From: Oceanicaulis alexandrii DSM 11625
GTDB taxonomy: Bacteria > Pseudomonadota > Alphaproteobacteria > Caulobacterales > Maricaulaceae
Reading direction: 5' to 3'
Assembly (NCBI RefSeq): GCF_000420265.1
Contig: NZ_ATUP01000001.1
Coordinates: forward strand, 248,001-312,000
DNA: 64,000 bases
Made by a program: the position numbers and the translations under genes
The notes under the pieces: model-generated
Told to the model about the DNA's origin: nothing
Seen by the model: the letters and a program-made list of their open reading frames with translations, nothing else
The model's database searches: none
Shown: positions 15,488 to 24,334 of the stretch, piece by piece
Layout: every line of letters begins with the position of its first letter
Position numbering within the stretch: the first letter of the stretch is position 1

Positions 15488-16138
15488 ATGCGCGGCTTCG
15501 GCGTTCAGGAATTGCTGGCGTGCTATGCACGCGGGGTCTTCCCGATGGCGGAGTCGCGCAGCGACACCCGTGTCTACCTGTTGGAACCTGATGAGCGCGG
15601 CGTCATCCCGCTTGATGGGTTTCACATTCCCAAATCCCTGAAAAAGATAGTCCGGCGCGATGAGTTCGCCCTGACCGTCAATCGCTGTTTCGAGACGGTG
15701 GTGCGCAGCTGCGCCGCTCCCGCGCCCGGGCGCGAGGACAGCTGGATCAATGATCAGATCCTGATGCTCTATCTGGATATGCACGCCGCCGGTCACGCCC
15801 ATTCCATCGAGGCGTGGAAGGACGGCAAGCTGGCGGGCGGGCTTTACGGGGTCAGCCTGGGCGGCGCGTTCTTCGGCGAAAGCATGTTCTCGCGCGAGAC
15901 GGACGCGTCCAAGGTCGCGCTGGTGTCTCTGGTGGCGCGCCTGAACGCTGGCGGCTACACGCTGCTGGACACCCAGTTCAACACAGACCATCTCAAGCGC
16001 TTTGGGGCGCAGACGATCTCACAAGAAGCGTATCGTGAGCAGCTGGATGAGGCGATCGAGCGCTCAGCTGACTTTTTCACGCTTCCCGAGGGCGTGGCCG
16101 GCGATCAGCTTCTGCAGTCAATCACCCAGACGTCATAG
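15488..16138 (+). CDS. aat: Leucyl/phenylalanyl-tRNA--protein transferase
   Basis: Adds Leu or Phe from aminoacyl-tRNA to proteins with N-terminal Arg or Lys, marking them for ClpS/ClpAP. The 216 residues show family marks ELLACYARGVFPMAES, WINDQILMLYLDMHAAGHAHSIEAW, LAGGLYGVSLGGAFFGESMFS and LLDTQFNTDHLKRFGA. It follows accC by 16 nt and is probably cotranscribed. Its last 34 bases overlap the DUF2155 gene on the other strand. Confidence 0.95.
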   Translation: MRGFGVQELLACYARGVFPMAESRSDTRVYLLEPDERGVIPLDGFHIPKSLKKIVRRDEFALTVNRCFETVVRSCAAPAPGREDSWINDQILMLYLDMHAAGHAHSIEAWKDGKLAGGLYGVSLGGAFFGESMFSRETDASKVALVSLVARLNAGGYTLLDTQFNTDHLKRFGAQTISQEAYREQLDEAIERSADFFTLPEGVAGDQLLQSITQTS

Positions 16139-16584
16139 ACCGGATGCTCCAGCGCGTTGAGCGCCGGGTTGGATGCGAACATCCAGCCTGAGAACATCAA
16201 TTCTCCCTCCGCCTGAACGCCGAAGCCATCCGTGCGGCGGTCTTCAACCTCGACAAAAGCGAACACTTCCGGCGGCTCTTCCGGCGGGCGCTTGCGGCAA
16301 TACTGAACCGTGATCGACAGGGCGCCGAACTCGACAGCCTCGCCAATGGGGGCCTGGAAATCGCGGGTGCGGGCCGTGACCTTATCAAGGCCGCGCAACA
16401 CCACGACAGAGCCCGGCTCTGAGGTCAGCTCCGGCGCATCAGGATCATCCTGCACACGGGTCTGCGCCGATTGCTGGTTCGCCACGCCTTGTTGCATCTC
16501 GACCGGTTGCGCCAGGACAGGCGCGCCAAGGCAAAGCGCTGAGATCAAGGAGGTTGAAACAATCATTGAGCGGATCATGGTCAT
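16105..16584 (-). CDS. DUF2155 exported protein
   Basis: Exported protein of unknown function with the DUF2155 domain, found mostly in Alphaproteobacteria next to NDUFA12 and mlaD. A signal peptide ends around APVLAQ. Family features are VVVLRGLDKVTARTRDFQAPIGE, ITVQYCRKRPPEEPPEVFAFVEV, GELMFSGWMFASNPALNALEHPVYDVWVIDC. The two Cys in QYC and IDC probably pair in the periplasm. ATG 16584 is used; a TTG start at 16614 and an ATG at 16578 are also open and no strong ribosome site decides. Its 3' end overlaps aat by 34 bases. Confidence 0.85.
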   Translation of the reverse strand: MTMIRSMIVSTSLISALCLGAPVLAQPVEMQQGVANQQSAQTRVQDDPDAPELTSEPGSVVVLRGLDKVTARTRDFQAPIGEAVEFGALSITVQYCRKRPPEEPPEVFAFVEVEDRRTDGFGVQAEGELMFSGWMFASNPALNALEHPVYDVWVIDCRS

Positions 16585-16622
16585 CACTGTGTTAGGCGTT
16601 TGAGGCGAGACCAAGGCGCAGC

Positions 16623-17096
16623 TCAGGATTCCGAGCCGCCCGATCCGGACGAGCCGCGGTTCATCACCGCCTGGCCGATGAGGTCGAACATGTCCACGGC
16701 GCCCTGGGTGAAGGAGATCTCCTCCCCCGCTTGCAGCATGTCCACATCGCCGCCGGGTTCGATTTCGATGAAGACACCGCCGATCAGGCCTGCAGTGGCG
16801 ATTTTGGCGGTGGAATCCGCCGGGATCTGAATCTCGCCATTCAGCTCGAACACGGCTTCAGCGAAATAGGTGTCCTGATCGAGGCGCACTGTGGTGACCG
16901 TTCCCACCGGGACACCCGCCACGCGCACATCGGCGCCGCGGCTCAGATCGCCCACTGATGAGAAGCGGGCCGTCAGCGTATAGCCGTCAGACCCGGACCC
17001 GTCATCAATCTGGCCTTGGGCGTAGATCAGGAAGGCGCCGGCGGTGACCAGCACGAGCAGACCCAGCACGGTTTCGAGAACGGCGCCGCCACGCAT
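16623..17096 (-). CDS. mlaD: MlaD-family lipid-transport protein
   Basis: Inner-membrane-anchored substrate-binding subunit of a phospholipid-transport ABC system that keeps outer-membrane lipid asymmetry. One N-terminal helix (about residues 8-27) precedes the MCE/MlaD domain: YTLTARFSSVGDLSRGADVRVAGVPVGTV and FIEIEPGG are diagnostic. The 157 residues fit MlaD. It is 4 nt after the NDUFA12 gene and upstream of DUF2155. The permease and ATPase are not in the window, so this MlaD works with subunits encoded elsewhere. Confidence 0.93.
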   Translation of the reverse strand: MRGGAVLETVLGLLVLVTAGAFLIYAQGQIDDGSGSDGYTLTARFSSVGDLSRGADVRVAGVPVGTVTTVRLDQDTYFAEAVFELNGEIQIPADSTAKIATAGLIGGVFIEIEPGGDVDMLQAGEEISFTQGAVDMFDLIGQAVMNRGSSGSGGSES

Positions 17097-17100
17097 GAGT

Positions 17101-17514
17101 TTAATCTCCCGGTGTCCAGGATTCGTAATCGGCCGCCGTCGCCTGACGCTGACGCGCCGACCCGCCGATCAAGGATCCCGTCGGGTGATAGGCGTGCAGC
17201 GTTCCGGTCATGTTGGGTTGATGCTCTTGCTCCCAATCCTTGCGCGGCAGCGGCGCATCGGTGGGGACTTCATCAAAGGTGTGGTGCATCCAGCCGTGCC
17301 AGTCAGAGGGCACCCGAGATCCGTCGGCATAGCCGTTATAGACGACCCAGCGGCGGGTCTTGCCGTCTGCGCCCGTCCCGGCCTTGCGCTCTTGATAGTA
17401 TTTATTGCCGAACTCATCCTCGCCGACGAGCTCGCCAGAACGCCAGATCGTCCAGGCCGCGCCCGCAGACGCGCCGTTCCACCAGGTGAAGACTTTTGAC
17501 AGCAGGCCAAGCAT
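17101..17514 (-). CDS. NDUFA12-family complex I accessory subunit
   Basis: Homologue of the mitochondrial 17.2-kDa complex I subunit, present in many Alphaproteobacteria where it is an accessory part of NADH:ubiquinone oxidoreductase. Typical marks are GNKYYQER, RRWVVYNGYADGSRVPSDWHGWMHHTFDEVP and the terminal YESWTPGD. The 137 residues fit. The start ATG has GAAGGAG upstream. It heads the NDUFA12-mlaD-DUF2155 set. Confidence 0.93.
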   Translation of the reverse strand: MLGLLSKVFTWWNGASAGAAWTIWRSGELVGEDEFGNKYYQERKAGTGADGKTRRWVVYNGYADGSRVPSDWHGWMHHTFDEVPTDAPLPRKDWEQEHQPNMTGTLHAYHPTGSLIGGSARQRQATAADYESWTPGD

Positions 17515-17757: not shown

Positions 17758-20358
17758 ATGAGCAATCCCCGCCGCCTGTCCCGAAACGGTGTTTCGCCGC
17801 TGGATGATTTCGCCTTTCAGAGCCGACAGGCGGATAATCCCGACCCTGACGCCATCGATGAAGAGGCCGAGGTTCAGGTGCTCACGCCGCAAGGGTGGGA
17901 TACGCGCACGATCGCCGCGCTTGTCACGCTGTGCGGGGCGCAACCCGGTGAACAGCTCCATGCAGGCCATGTCCTGTCTGAGCTGGCTGAGTCGCTGGCG
18001 GAGGGTGACGCCGTCGCACACGACGAACTGCTCGCCAGCCTGTTGCACCGCGAAGCCGCGCCGGTTCCGGCGCTGTGGCGGGGCGAGAGCCTGCTGCCGC
18101 CTGAAGGCCAATCGACCATCGGCGCAGAAGGGCTGACCGAAGCCCTGCATGATCTCAACGCTGCGGAAATGGGCCAGGCCGCCGCCAATGTGGGCGCAAG
18201 GGTTCTGGCTGAACGTCTGGAAGCTGTGGCGCTGGCCTGCGTCAATTGCGACGGCGCGGACGATGAATGCTTTGACCCGCGTCGCAATCGCGCCCTGGCG
18301 CGCGCCGTGCGCGCCGCCCGACGCGACGGCGCGCCTGACCCGATGATCGAGCGCGCCATAGCCCGCGCGCGTCAGGGACTGATCACGCCTGAACAAGGCC
18401 TGTTCGCGACGCCGCCCGCGGCCGAACTGCCCGACATTCAGCTTGGGCGAGAATTTTTTGAGGCGGTCGAAAGCGACGCCGTGCTTGCAGATGGACAAAG
18501 TGCGCGCCAGGTGATGACCCGCCTGGCTGAAGCCGTCTGGACCCACGGCAAGCCCGCGCTTCATTTCAAGGAGCCGGAGTTGAGCGTCAGCCCGGCTATC
18601 GTGCTCAATCTGGCGCGCTTCATCGACGGCCAGAGCCTTGATGAAGACGGGCTGGCCTATGCGGCGCGTCTGTGGGGGCAAGTCGCCGGGCGTCAGAACG
18701 GCGCGCTCGTGATCGTTGGCCTGGGCGCGGCTCTCACCGCCCTGTCGCTCGCCTATGACAGCGAAACGGCCCGAGAACGCGCCCGACATGTTCTGACCAT
18801 ACTGCGCAGCGAATGTCCCGCGCCCGTCAGCCTGGCGCGGCCCGACCCGCTGGCTGCGGGATTCGTAGACGCAGAATCAGTAGGCGTTCACCCCCCTGCG
18901 GCCCTCGACGCCCCCGGCGGCCGTCAGTTCGCCCAGTGCGTAAGCGCGGCGCTCAGCAGCTTGTCCGAGCATGAACAGGGCATCGCCCGCCGCCATGCCT
19001 TGGGCGCTGGCGCACTGGCGGGGCACTCCGCGCCCTGGATCAGCCAGCTGGAAGCCGCAGGCGTCGACCAGGCCGGCTTCGCCCGGATCGACGCGGCGCT
19101 CAGCGACGGCGTGCCGCTACGCTTTGCGATCAATCGCTGGAGTCTGGGCGCAGAAGTCGCTCGCAGATGCGGGCTGAGCCCTGAACATTTTGACGAGGCG
19201 GGTCCTCGCCTTCTGGAAAAGCTCGGCGTGGATCCCCTCGAAGTGGTCGCCGCCGAACGCTATGTGCATGGCGCAGGACGCCTGGATGATTGCGACACGC
19301 TGCCCCCCGAACTGCGCGCCGTATTCGCAGACCCCGCCCCCGAGGCGCGACTGGCGATGGCGGAGGCCTGTGAAGAGGCGCTTGAAGGCTCAGCCAGTCT
19401 GGAACTGGCCCTGCCCGGTTCAAGCTCCATTGAAGAGCTGGGCGCCTTGATCGCCTCCAGCGCGCGGCGCGGCCTGACGGGCCTGTCCATCCGCCGTGAA
19501 GGCGATGCGCTCTATGACCTTTTGAACACGATCGAATATGAAACCGGCGATTCTGTGCGCCGTTCGGTCATCGCTGAAGAGCGTGTCGTCGAACGCGTGG
19601 TGGAGAAATATGTCGAGCGCGCCGCCGAGCGCCGCAAGCTGCCCGATCGCCGCAAGGGCTATATCCAGAAATCCACTGTGGGCGGCCACAAGGTCTACCT
19701 GCACACCGGCGAGTTCGAGGATGGCGAGCTGGGCGAGATCTTCATCGACATGCACAAGGAAGGAGCCGCCTTCCGCTCGCTGATGAACAATTTCGCCATC
19801 TCCATCTCCATCGGCCTGCAATACGGCGTGCCGCTGGAAGAGTATGTGGACGCCTATCTGTTCACCCGATTCGAACCGGCGGGCGCGGTGGGCGGCAATG
19901 ATTCCATCAAGCACGCCAGCTCGATCCTCGATTACATCTTCCGTGAACTGGCGGTGAGCTATCTGGGCCGTGAAGACCTCGCCCAGGCTGATGCCCACCC
20001 CTATGATCCCGGCGGACTTGGCAAAGGCGTCGAACAGGAAAAGCTGGTGCGCGAAGCAGATCCCGCCAGCCTGATCTCCAAGGGCTTCTCCCGCGGTCAG
20101 CTGCCCGACAATGTGGTCATGCTGGGCAGCCGGTCCAAACCGGAAAGCTCTGACAGTCCGGCCGCAGGCACGGGATTTGAGTTTGATCCCAAGCCCGCCT
20201 CAGGCGGCGGTCATGCGGGCGGCGCGTCCGTGGAGCGGCTGGAAGAGCCTGCGGTGAACTATCATGGCGATCCCTGCCCGGAATGCGGTCATTTCACCGT
20301 GATTGAAAACGCCGGGCTACTGGGCTGTGACGCCTGCGGCTGGGCGGGAAAGGTCTAG
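17758..20358 (+). CDS. NrdJ-like protein with TSCPD domain, probably a catalytically inactive reductase relative
   Basis: The 866-residue protein ends like the B12-dependent (class II) ribonucleotide reductase of Alphaproteobacteria: a TSCPD domain at about 640-745 (GGHKVYLHTGEFEDGELGEI, AISISIGLQYGVPLEEYVDA) and a terminal zinc ribbon PCPECG...GCDACG. Upstream, weaker colinear similarity to NrdJ continues: LRFAINRWSLGAEV (about 451) and MAEACEEALEGSASLELALP match barrel segments, and NLARFIDG with YAARLW resembles the middle of the barrel. The residues expected for catalysis are not there: no SCNLASLNL-type N-C-x-E loop (VSPAIVLNL instead) and no PTGTI phosphate loop. It is about 350 residues shorter than NrdJ. 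It may be a regulator, a partner subunit or a relic; the function is not known. GGAG precedes ATG 17758. Confidence 0.75.
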   Translation: MSNPRRLSRNGVSPLDDFAFQSRQADNPDPDAIDEEAEVQVLTPQGWDTRTIAALVTLCGAQPGEQLHAGHVLSELAESLAEGDAVAHDELLASLLHREAAPVPALWRGESLLPPEGQSTIGAEGLTEALHDLNAAEMGQAAANVGARVLAERLEAVALACVNCDGADDECFDPRRNRALARAVRAARRDGAPDPMIERAIARARQGLITPEQGLFATPPAAELPDIQLGREFFEAVESDAVLADGQSARQVMTRLAEAVWTHGKPALHFKEPELSVSPAIVLNLARFIDGQSLDEDGLAYAARLWGQVAGRQNGALVIVGLGAALTALSLAYDSETARERARHVLTILRSECPAPVSLARPDPLAAGFVDAESVGVHPPAALDAPGGRQFAQCVSAALSSLSEHEQGIARRHALGAGALAGHSAPWISQLEAAGVDQAGFARIDAALSDGVPLRFAINRWSLGAEVARRCGLSPEHFDEAGPRLLEKLGVDPLEVVAAERYVHGAGRLDDCDTLPPELRAVFADPAPEARLAMAEACEEALEGSASLELALPGSSSIEELGALIASSARRGLTGLSIRREGDALYDLLNTIEYETGDSVRRSVIAEERVVERVVEKYVERAAERRKLPDRRKGYIQKSTVGGHKVYLHTGEFEDGELGEIFIDMHKEGAAFRSLMNNFAISISIGLQYGVPLEEYVDAYLFTRFEPAGAVGGNDSIKHASSILDYIFRELAVSYLGREDLAQADAHPYDPGGLGKGVEQEKLVREADPASLISKGFSRGQLPDNVVMLGSRSKPESSDSPAAGTGFEFDPKPASGGGHAGGASVERLEEPAVNYHGDPCPECGHFTVIENAGLLGCDACGWAGKV

Positions 20359-20412
20359 GGTTCAGGCCTGAAACTTGCGCAGGGCAGACCGGTAACAGAC
20401 AAGGTGTGCGCC

Positions 20413-20904
20413 ATGTTGAAACAGTTTCTTTGCGTTATTGGCCTGCTTGCGGCCTTGCCGGGCAGCGCTCTCGCCCAGAACGTCAGCGAAATCGCGCGGG
20501 TTCAAGCCGGTCAGTCCTGTCCGGGCTGCAATCTGTTTCAGGCGGATCTGAGCTATCTCGATCTGCCCCATATTGACGTTTCAGGCGCCCGTCTGCGCCA
20601 GGCCGATCTCAGCCTGGCGACGATGAACCACGCCAATTTCGCACGAGCGAATCTGTCCGTCTCCAACCTATTCGGCGCGCGCTTCACAGGCGCGAGCTTC
20701 GCCTATGCCGACCTGAGCCGCGCCACAGCGGCGGGCGCCTATTTCGGCAGCGCTGATTTCACAGGGGCACGCCTCGATGGCGCGAATCTGTCCGGCGCCG
20801 AAATGGAAACCGCACGCGGCCTGACCCAGGCTCAACTCAATACAGCATGTGGCGACGCCAGCACGCTTTTACCGCCCGGCCTGAGAATTCCGCCTTGTCG
20901 GTGA
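20413..20904 (+). CDS. Exported pentapeptide-repeat protein
   Basis: A 163-residue protein with a signal peptide ending SALAQ, followed by pentapeptide repeats of the A(D/N)LxX type (FQADLSYLDL, LRQADLSLATMNHANFARANL, FTGASFAYADLSRATAAGAYF, LDGANLSGAEM) that should form a right-handed quadrilateral beta-helix. Cys pairs frame the helix: SCPGC just before it and ACGD...PPC at the end, both likely disulfides in the periplasm. The C-terminal LTQAQLNTACGDASTLLPP motif recurs in the next gene. ATG 20413 with AAGGTG upstream is preferred to GTG 20404. Function unknown. Confidence 0.85.
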   Translation: MLKQFLCVIGLLAALPGSALAQNVSEIARVQAGQSCPGCNLFQADLSYLDLPHIDVSGARLRQADLSLATMNHANFARANLSVSNLFGARFTGASFAYADLSRATAAGAYFGSADFTGARLDGANLSGAEMETARGLTQAQLNTACGDASTLLPPGLRIPPCR

Positions 20905-20944
20905 ACAGGTTCACTGCATCTTACTGCGAATTTAGTCGCCCCTG

Positions 20945-22447
20945 ATGCATAGGCGGATTACATCTATCGCCATGCCATACCGCACATTCATATTGGCTTT
21001 GGCCCTGAGCACGTGTTTGTCCGCCCCGGGACTGGCTGGCGAACCCCATCGCCGTCTCGTGATCGGCGGCGACTGTCCATCCTGTGACTTTGTTGACGCC
21101 AATCTGGCCGGCGCTCAAATGATCGGCGGCGACTTTTCCGGCGCGAACTTTTCAGACGCCCAGATTCTTGGCGCACAGCTGATCGACCTGAATCTGTCCG
21201 GCGCGAATTTCACCGACGCCACATTGTCAGAAGCCCGTTTGTCGAATGTCGAGCTGGATGGCGCCAATCTGGAAGACGCTCAGATGATGCGCTTGCGCGC
21301 GCATCAGGTCAGCCTGCGCGGCGCCAATCTGCGAGATGCGAATATGGAGGGCGGGGTTTACCTCCTCTCCGATCTCAGCGGCGCCAATCTGCGCAGCGCC
21401 AACCTGCCCGACACCGTCTTCCGGCAAGCCGATCTCAGCCAGGCCAATCTGCGTGACGCCAATCTGATGCGCGCCCACTTCTTCGGCGCCCGGCTGCGCG
21501 GCGTGGACGGGCGCGGCGGATTGTTTCGCAACGTGATCTTTGAAAACACCGATCTGAGTTTCGCCGATCTGCGCGACACCCGTTTTTCAGATGCGCAATT
21601 CATAGCGGTCAATCTGTCGTCCACCGATCTGCGCGATGCGGAAGGTTTGACGGCGGAGAATTTCCAGCATGTGTGCGGCGATGAGAATACGCGCCTGCCC
21701 TTTGACTACACGCTGACTCGCTGTTCAGAGGATGGCAGCCTGGTGTTCACCCTGCGCCGCAGTTCGGAGACTGCAGTGGCGGCTCCGGTGGCTAGCCTGG
21801 AAAGCCAGCGCGCCGAGCTGGAACGCGCCAGCGCCGAACTGGAAGCGGCCATCTCCGAAAGCGGCCAGATCATGCGCGTGCGCGAGCGTGAAATGGCGCT
21901 CGCCTTGCGCGAGGCGCTGTCAGAGCTGCGTCATGCCGCACAGGACGTGACTGTGCGCATCAACGAAACCGAGAGTTCCGACAGCGTCGAGCTGGCGATC
22001 GAACAAGCCACAGCGGAAGTGGTGAGAGACAGTCTGCGCGTCGCCGCTCGCGCTCTGGCCGAAGCTCAGGCCAATGGCGATCTGGATCAGGTGGACTGGA
22101 GTTTCGATTTCCATCCCACCGAGCTGGGAGACCGCATTCGACTGATCCTGGAGCAAAGCGGTCCAGCCCCCAAACCTGTCGCACCGCCCATGACGCTGGA
22201 CGGCGCGCCGCCTGCGCCGCCCAAACAGCCCAACCCGCGTTCCCATGCCGAGCTGGCGGAGCACGAAGCTCGCCGCATGGAGCAAGCGGCGGACCAAGCA
22301 CGGCGGCGGGCCGAACAAGCTGCCGAGCAAGCCCAGCGCCAGCAAGAGGCCGCCCAGCGTGCTGAAGAGCGCCGCCGCGAACGCGAAGCGCGCAATGAAC
22401 GCCCCCAGCCGCCGCAACCGCCTCGTCCGCCTGAAAACGAAGGCTGA
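20945..22447 (+). CDS. Exported pentapeptide-repeat protein with C-terminal coiled coil
   Basis: A 500-residue paralogue of the preceding gene. After a signal peptide (PGLAG) comes DCPSC, then about 14 pentapeptide repeats (residues about 40-225), then VCGDENTRLPFDYTLTRC. Unlike its neighbour it continues with a helical segment (about 260-400), a proline-rich linker and a charged Arg/Glu/Ala/Gln coiled coil ending in a Pro tail. This could reach across the periplasm or bind the cell wall, an inference only. ATG 20945 is used; ATG 20972 (MPYRTFIL) is also possible and gives a shorter signal peptide. A shared terminator follows. Confidence 0.82.
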   Translation: MHRRITSIAMPYRTFILALALSTCLSAPGLAGEPHRRLVIGGDCPSCDFVDANLAGAQMIGGDFSGANFSDAQILGAQLIDLNLSGANFTDATLSEARLSNVELDGANLEDAQMMRLRAHQVSLRGANLRDANMEGGVYLLSDLSGANLRSANLPDTVFRQADLSQANLRDANLMRAHFFGARLRGVDGRGGLFRNVIFENTDLSFADLRDTRFSDAQFIAVNLSSTDLRDAEGLTAENFQHVCGDENTRLPFDYTLTRCSEDGSLVFTLRRSSETAVAAPVASLESQRAELERASAELEAAISESGQIMRVREREMALALREALSELRHAAQDVTVRINETESSDSVELAIEQATAEVVRDSLRVAARALAEAQANGDLDQVDWSFDFHPTELGDRIRLILEQSGPAPKPVAPPMTLDGAPPAPPKQPNPRSHAELAEHEARRMEQAADQARRRAEQAAEQAQRQQEAAQRAEERRREREARNERPQPPQPPRPPENEG

Positions 22448-22516: not shown

Positions 22517-24334
22517 TTAGCTGTCTTTCTTGGCCTCGGGCGTCACGGTGCGCAGGTGCAGTTCGCGCAGCTGGCGCATCTCCGCAGGGGCCGGCGCATT
22601 CATCATCAGATCGCGCGCCTGCTGGTCTTTCGGGAACATCACGACTTCGCGCAAATTGTCCTGATCGGCCAGGATCATCACGATCCGGTCCACGCCCGGC
22701 GCAATGCCGCCGTGCGGCGGGGCGCCGTAACGGAAGGCGTTCAGCATGCCGCCGAAGGCCTCTTCCACGACATCCTCGCCATAGCCAGCGAATTCAAACG
22801 CTTTCAGCATCACGTCCGGACGGTGGTTCCGGATGGCGCCTGAAGACAGCTCGATGCCGTTACAGATGATGTCGTACTGCCAGGCCTTCATCCCCAGAAG
22901 CGTTTCATGGTCGTTCTTGTCGAGCGCCATGAACTCATCGGGATCCATTTGCGGCATGGAGAACGGGTTGTGGGAGAAGTCGACCTTCTTGTTGTCTTCA
23001 TCCCATTCATACATCGGGAAATCGACGACCCAGCAGAAGCGGAAGACGTTCTCTTCAAACAGGTTCAGTTCCTGGCCGACCACATTGCGGGCCTTGCCGG
23101 CGAAGCTGGCGAACGCGGACGGCTCGCCCGCGGCGAAGAACACGGCGTCGCCCGCTTCAAGACCGAGCTGGGTGCGCAAGGCCTCGGTGCGCTCCGGACC
23201 GATATTCTTGGCGATGGGGCCGGCGCCGGCCAGCGCGCCCTCTTCTTCACGCCAGAAGATATAGCCCAGCCCCGGCTGGCCTTCCTTCTGCGCCCAGGAA
23301 TTCATCCGGTCGCAGAACGCGCGGCTGCCGCCCTTCGGCGCCGGGATCGCCCAAACCTCGACCTTGGGGTTCTTCTCGATCATGCCCGCAAAGACCTTGA
23401 AGCCGGACCCGGCGAAATGCTCGGTGACGGCTTCCATCTCGATCGGGTTGCGCAGATCAGGCTTGTCAGAGCCATATTTGCGCATGGCTTCAGCATAGGG
23501 AATGCGCGGGAAAGCCTCGTCAGGGACTTTGCGGTCGTCGGCGAATTCACGGAACAGACCGGCCAGAACCGGCTCCATCACGCCAAAGACCTCATCCTGG
23601 GTGACGAAGCTCATTTCCATGTCGAGCTGATAGAACTCGCCCGGCGCGCGGTCGGCGCGGGCGTCTTCGTCCCGGAAGCACGGTGCGATCTGGAAGTAGC
23701 GATCAAAGCCCGACACCATGATCAGCTGTTTGAACTGCTGCGGCGCCTGGGGCAGCGCATAGAACTGGCCCGGATGCAGGCGCGACGGCACCAGGAAGTC
23801 GCGCGCGCCTTCCGGTGAAGACGCGGTCAGGATCGGCGTCTGGTATTCGGTGAAGCCCTCATCGACCATGCGGCGACGCAAGGAGTCGATGATCTTCGAG
23901 CGCAGCACGATGCGCTTGTGCAGGCTTTCCCGGCGCAGATCGATATAGCGGTGCTTCAGGCGCACTTCTTCTGACCAGTCCGGCTCGCCGAACACGGGCA
24001 GCGGCAGCTCTTCAGCGGCGGACTGAACCACAAGGTCCTCGACCAGCAATTCGATCTCGCCGGTGGGCAGGTTGGGGTTGATCGTGTCCTCAGAGCGCGC
24101 CACGACCTTGCCGGTCACGGTGACGACGCTTTCCGCGCGCATCCGTTCCAGGGTCGCGAAATTGGGATTATCAGGCTCCAGCACGCATTGGGTCAGACCG
24201 TAATGGTCGCGCAAATCCACAAACAGCAGACCGCCATGGTCGCGCTTGCGGTGGATCCAGCCGGACAGCCGCGCAGTTTCGCCCATCTGGGCTTTGCGCA
24301 GCTCTCCGCAAGTATGGGTGCGATAAGCGTGCAT
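22517..24334 (-). CDS. aspS: Aspartyl-tRNA synthetase
   Basis: Class II synthetase charging tRNA-Asp. The 605-residue bacterial-type enzyme has an N-terminal OB-fold ([22 protein letters not shown]), the motif 2 region ([25 protein letters not shown]), the GAD insert and motif 3 ([14 protein letters not shown]). Whether it also charges tRNA-Asn depends on genes outside the window. ATG 24334 is followed directly by [13 protein letters not shown], the usual start. Confidence 0.97.

Follow-up and report, generated by a model that had tools for sequence, protein, structure and literature searches.

A putative NrdJ-derived pseudoenzyme in Oceanicaulis alexandrii and the conservation of its TSCPD module

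The gene and its parts

The stretch of Oceanicaulis alexandrii DSM 11625 analysed here (the window: 64,000 nucleotides, positions 248,001 to 312,000 of contig NZ_ATUP01000001.1) carries on its plus strand, at 17758..20358, a single uninterrupted reading frame of 866 amino acids (aa). From its alignments and its match to PRK07562, the NCBIfam model of alphaproteobacterial NrdJ, the product appears to be a catalytically dead homologue of this vitamin B12-dependent class II ribonucleotide reductase (RNR). The match (E 5.7e-117) is best over residues 392-862, but its 392 bits fall short of the cut-off of 1737. A preliminary description of the DNA had recognised the intact frame and confined the homology to the last 420 residues; the latter does not hold, as the N-terminal part can be aligned to NrdJ from its start, eight of 24 aligned relatives, though not the window protein, match the Pfam domain Ribonuc_red_2_N at E<=0.1, and residues 1-589 of a predicted model can be superposed on NrdJ.

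The class II N-terminal region and barrel remnant span residues 1-585 (17758..19512; this and all parts that follow lie on the plus strand). The RNR barrel fold is retained in the model, and canonical NrdJ is longer by about 315-380 residues in the part ahead of the TSCPD domain. For the barrel region, the closest named records come from two Oceanicaulis strains (84-85%), and the 28 named-record loci with relatives of it belong to Oceanicaulis, Alkalicaulis, Marinicauda, Glycocaulis, Woodsholea, Maricaulis and unnamed alphaproteobacteria. At two loci of genus g7 (L035, L036), BLAST matches of the window protein jump residues ~402-521, as if the barrel remnant had been eroded further there. Residues 173-206 (18274..18375) resemble the helical hairpin of the YebC/TACO1 N-terminal domain (PF20772, E 2.3e-4); all 24 aligned shortened homologues (best 9.7e-6) and all eight canonical NrdJ proteins scanned (L069, L091 and L096 among them) have similar matches at E<=0.1, likewise under the Pfam cut-off.

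Beyond the barrel, a charged ERVVE-type stretch and a basic linker (residues 601-627, 19558..19638; a low-confidence predicted helix) lead into the TSCPD module (residues 628-742, 19639..19983), which Pfam matches over residues 638-732 (E 1.1e-8) and which, modelled alone, reaches a per-residue confidence (pLDDT) of about 83-95. A variable linker, mostly of low model confidence (residues 743-833, 19984..20256), then precedes a terminal four-cysteine zinc ribbon (residues 834-866, 20257..20355). The protein also contains a basic RRKLPDRRK stretch.

Loss of catalytic residues

Residues were compared across 20 canonical homologues (1188-1270 aa) and 62 short homologues (752-1050 aa; hereafter short forms). 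These counts, together with those for seven loci encoding a TSCPD protein without a barrel (TSCPD-only), refer to fetched loci (30 loci and 60 chosen regions) rather than to all 136 matching genomes, and omit L002-L005 (duplicates from the window's own genome) and loci without a TSCPD match; L064 ends at a contig end, and L052, whose module contains a run of N, is counted among the 62 and excluded from module identities (88 of 89 rows).

All 20 canonical homologues have the HACF cysteine, the N-C-x-E radical-cysteine loop, the ACNL cysteine and the PTGTI motif, and none of the 62 short forms has any of these, though single PTGTI residues recur by position. The HACF and ACNL cysteines are taken to be the active-site redox pair. 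In the window protein the N-C-x-E loop (canonical NPCSE) is deleted just upstream of VSPAIVLNL (residues 277-285, 18586..18612), the counterpart of TACNLASLNL in canonical enzymes. This is the second redox-cysteine loop, here with serine in place of its cysteine; PDPLA (residues 362-366, 18841..18855) stands where the PTGTI phosphate loop is expected. The preliminary description had rightly reported the missing PTGTI and had seen in VSPAIVLNL the loss of the active site, misplacing it at the N-C-x-E position. In the terminal ribbon, the four zinc-ligand positions are cysteine in 62/62 short forms, and the C-terminal redox pair positions in none of them (20/20 canonical); the redox positions are those assigned in the relevant part of Loderer et al. 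(PMC5704485), matched to these proteins in the present analysis.

Judged by its residues, the window protein lacks the radical cysteine, both redox pairs and the PTGTI motif of a functional class II NrdJ, and keeps the TSCPD module, the four-cysteine ribbon and, in the model, the barrel fold. Homology, lost catalytic residues and an intact frame under purifying selection support its classification as an NrdJ-derived pseudoenzyme, much as first proposed.

Locus and distribution

The window protein has no second protein match in its own genome at E<=0.001, and one barrel alone exceeds the Pfam cut-off there, in a 651-aa frame of class I NrdA with NrdB ~3 kb away. The search for a full-length nrdJ that the preliminary description had advised finds only class I NrdAB, and the 'true enzyme' that it supposed might be regulated is, as an NrdJ, no longer in the genome; such regulation would have to concern class I NrdAB. 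Upstream of the gene lie aat (15488..16138, plus strand), the DUF2155 and MlaD genes (16105..17096, minus) and an NDUFA12-family gene (17101..17514, minus), and downstream two pentapeptide-repeat genes (20404..22447, plus) and aspS (22517..24334, minus), all syntenic markers. Because the neighbourhood accC-aat-DUF2155-(MlaD)-NDUFA12-X-pentapeptide-aspS is common, whole or in part, to canonical, short and TSCPD-only loci, X is the ancestral nrdJ slot, which across relatives is either empty or occupied by an intact NrdJ, the dead form or a TSCPD protein of ~275 aa without a barrel. NDUFA12 lies in the flanks of 49/62 short, 7/20 canonical and 7/7 TSCPD-only loci, and aspS in those of 4/7 TSCPD-only loci, the flanks being mostly 1-4 kb and a missing neighbour therefore uninformative. 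Ten genomes picked for lacking the protein all have NDUFA12, nine with a pentapeptide gene within its flank, and in none does that flank hold an nrdJ-like gene. The proposed origin by duplication of a functional NrdJ is not supported, since the genome has no other NrdJ and short forms sit in the syntenic slot of the canonical enzyme.

A homologue at E<=1e-10 occurs in at least 136 of 149 relatives searched. By frame length and clade, among the matches listed, 80 relatives have a short form, and 55 a canonical one (some of them fragments), the remainder being one undecided case (G029) and 13 relatives without a homologue; the dead form is found in four families of the window's order. Frequent disruption, as of a pseudogene, is not seen: the 62 short-form loci, which were picked as frames, are open over the lengths given above, and a single stop inside a match (G074) occurs among the rows listed. 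All 149 relatives have an RNR barrel match and 142 have NrdB, the seven without it being in part incomplete assemblies, though one of them, G096, has a completeness rating of 100%. Among the matches listed, 61 of the 80 short-form genomes have exactly two barrel segments, as from one NrdA, and 18 have further barrel (PF02867) segments, at least ten of these with a second frame of class II length; G068 apparently has two NrdA copies. Ten short-form genomes (G020, G042, G056, G063, G072, G081, G094, G105, G106, G110) have one more class II-like barrel at another place, where frames of 743-850 aa match it over its full length; such extra barrels are perhaps later acquisitions.

In a class-wide sample, TSCPD is present in at least 260 of 385 genomes. 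Barrel-less TSCPD proteins occur in two small-genome families, f102, where the four examined (272-274 aa) have also lost the zinc ribbon, and f13, where two of three (278 aa) have a four-cysteine ribbon and one is cut by a contig end. The seven TSCPD-only genomes, like G364 from another part of the class, carry class I NrdA and show no other barrel match at E<=0.001, the decayed short-form frames of G364 aside; the NrdB counts given above refer to the 149 relatives alone. Two very short TSCPD proteins, with frames of 104 and 136 aa (G507 C24 42044-42271, L057; G336 C8 118859-119092), fit the Pfam model far better (E 2e-24 and 5e-22) than NrdJ-borne domains do. Virus-labelled contigs (L183-L196 except L191, and L200) encode stand-alone proteins of 215-255 aa consisting of the cysteine-rich C-terminal domain (CRD) of class II enzymes, with all six tail cysteines, similar to split NrdJb; many of these contigs are only 4-7 kb long, and host contamination is possible.

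Conservation of the TSCPD module

Among the 20 canonical enzymes, mean pairwise identity is 0.842 in the TSCPD domain versus 0.623 in the adjoining catalytic barrel (190 pairs), and 25% in the linker. The module is as alike among short forms (0.879, 61 rows) and between canonical and short forms (0.835), and its identity to TSCPD-only proteins is 0.731 from the canonical and 0.722 from the short side; canonical relatives are 76-90% identical to the window's module. The ratio of nonsynonymous to synonymous divergence (omega, NG86, eight pairs) is 0-0.13 in the module, 0.07-0.45 in the barrel and 0.20-1.3 in the linker, rough values given the high synonymous divergence (dS) outside the module (barrel dS 0.7-1.2); the dN/dS check suggested at the outset thus points to an enzyme remnant kept intact. 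Since the four f102 barrel-less proteins examined lack the ribbon, it is the TSCPD module, on sequence grounds, and not the zinc ribbon that is the constant part of the series.

Where the TSCPD module is encoded, synonymous divergence is itself low in the short forms of Maricaulaceae (0.19 at fourfold codons versus 0.54 in the barrel in an Oceanicaulis-like trio, and lower also in three wider sets). The dip is small in family f4 and two canonical sets, and moderate in f2 and one more canonical set. It could stem from codon bias, from recombination or from a nucleotide-level element. An antisense open reading frame (19420-19998, minus) overlaps the same DNA.

Number of separate losses

An rpoB tree of 49 genomes requires three changes to explain the short forms, two of them forced by starred branches; a grouping of the order's 21 short forms in one clade is not rejected by rpoB alone (p-AU 0.247). 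The decayed barrel of G364 scores 112 bits to canonical enzymes versus 52 bits to the nearest short form, and we read it as a separate catalytic loss, although the flank of the G364 locus has none of the syntenic neighbours. The TSCPD-only families fall elsewhere on the tree, where long branches meet, and count as one or two additional losses. Catalysis has thus probably been lost at least three times, and perhaps four or five.

Why the gene is kept

We favour, with a probability of roughly 0.8, the reading that this gene is the original alphaproteobacterial nrdJ, which would have lost catalysis in place at its ancestral locus once class I NrdAB, presumably present first, could supply deoxyribonucleoside triphosphates (dNTPs), and which would have been kept for a job of the C-terminal TSCPD module that needs no radical chemistry. 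Because the module is the part that stays constant, canonical NrdJ would already have been bifunctional, with a reductase half dispensable given a class I enzyme; the pattern suggests a selected role for TSCPD independent of reductase chemistry. Some lineages (genus g8, some of g21) have lost the gene altogether, which speaks against any indispensable role. It is worth noting that no assigned role for TSCPD, and no paper joining 'TSCPD' and 'ribonucleotide reductase', was found in the literature searched. Tentatively, and with the odds somewhat against it, the module may serve DNA-precursor supply or replication by docking or by binding a ligand, its many invariant polar residues forming the binding face; the barrel remnant would then be no more than a scaffold or oligomerisation core, and the ribbon would act as a structural knob.

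Other explanations must be set against the same evidence. A dead barrel that pairs with NrdA or senses dNTPs, and so tunes the class I enzyme, would suit the barrel fold kept in the model, the presence of a barrel match and of NrdB in 149 and 142 of the 149 relatives, and the precedent, in the part of PMC5469499 concerned, of inactive RNR large-subunit homologues with new roles in cytomegaloviruses; we think it unlikely, as evolution is much faster in the barrel than in the module, which seven genomes retain with no barrel at all. YebC/TACO1 proteins are relevant to a further proposal, and 24/24 aligned short forms share the hairpin. These proteins act on nucleic acid or ribosomes, and the hairpin, the basic linker, the basic RRKLPDRRK stretch and the ribbon with four cysteines in 62/62 might together bind either; yet the hairpin scores under the Pfam cut-off and is a resemblance of sequence, and four f102 TSCPD-only proteins are without ribbon and, being barrel-less, without the hairpin site, so that binding of this kind also seems improbable.

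Still less can be said for an electron carrier of NrdJb type, whose terminal ribbon would reduce class I NrdA or another class II reductase: NrdJ ribbons do shuttle electrons (PMC5704485, in part), and 18/80 short-form genomes, the one with a second NrdA uncounted, have PF02867 segments beyond those of one NrdA among the matches listed, but the absence of both redox cysteines in 62/62 largely refutes it and leaves it very improbable. Hardly more credible is a decaying relic merely not yet lost, to which the fast and uneven evolution of the barrel, the lineages without the gene and the stop in G074 might point; omega stays below 0.5 even in the barrel, the gene persists in four families of the order, and the module is as conserved as in canonical enzymes.

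Loss of catalysis in place, with the module retained, has wider consequences. Evolution would have repeated a separation experiment at one locus, leaving enzyme with module, dead enzyme with module, module alone, or nothing. It seems to us rather more probable than not that alphaproteobacterial NrdJ was always two proteins in one, with an independent, strongly selected TSCPD function and a dispensable reductase, so that in the presence of class I NrdAB the barrel can erode or go and the module stays, independently in the window's order, a second order and lineages with small genomes; in that case the protein annotated as 'NrdJ' in Caulobacter would be no reductase. Short forms occur in 4/4 genomes of genus g28 (family f3, 4.0-5.2 Mb), by our inference Caulobacter, which may carry the dead form. 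In part of PMC6538847, CCNA_01966 is listed as NrdJ in nucleotide reduction. PRK07562 matches the Caulobacter vibrioides control genome below its cut-off, a weak control since five unrelated ones match too, and this match could be another class II enzyme; the model exceeds its cut-off in 0/14 control genomes and gives a canonical relative 1906 bits. If Caulobacter does have the dead form, a model organism would be available in which to test what the module does, free of interference from a reductase half of the same protein. Genes of the window's order automatically named 'vitamin B12-dependent ribonucleotide reductase' may be non-reductases, which matters for B12 dependence inferred from genomes.

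Comparison with known systems

The closest known system is alphaproteobacterial NrdJ itself (PRK07562; Rhodobacter sphaeroides NrdJ, PDB 7b9p/7b9q), with which the window protein shares the locus in several lineages, the domain order, the barrel fold (in the model), the TSCPD module and four ribbon cysteines, and from which it differs in lacking the radical and redox cysteines, N-C-x-E and PTGTI and in being ~320-400 residues shorter overall. Its ribbon is of the same kind as the class II CRD, with the four zinc-ligand cysteine positions; that domain, in the relevant part of Loderer et al. 2017 (PMC5704485), has six fully conserved cysteines, all required for electron transfer, of which the window protein lacks the redox two. 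NrdJb, the split CRD subunit of the NrdJa+b type treated in part of the same paper, resembles TSCPD-only forms in having a CRD without a barrel, yet serves a separate NrdJa, whereas NrdA of class I is the only one seen in the seven TSCPD-only genomes, and there is no redox pair. With no redox pair among the six cysteines and no separate NrdJa, the window protein does not qualify as an electron partner of this type. UL45 and M45 of cytomegaloviruses are class I RNR homologues. As far as the pertinent part of PMC5469499 goes, they offer a parallel in being RNR large-subunit homologues without reductase activity, kept for another role; theirs is viral and concerned with host signalling, whereas the window protein is bacterial, of class II descent and retains its C-terminal module.
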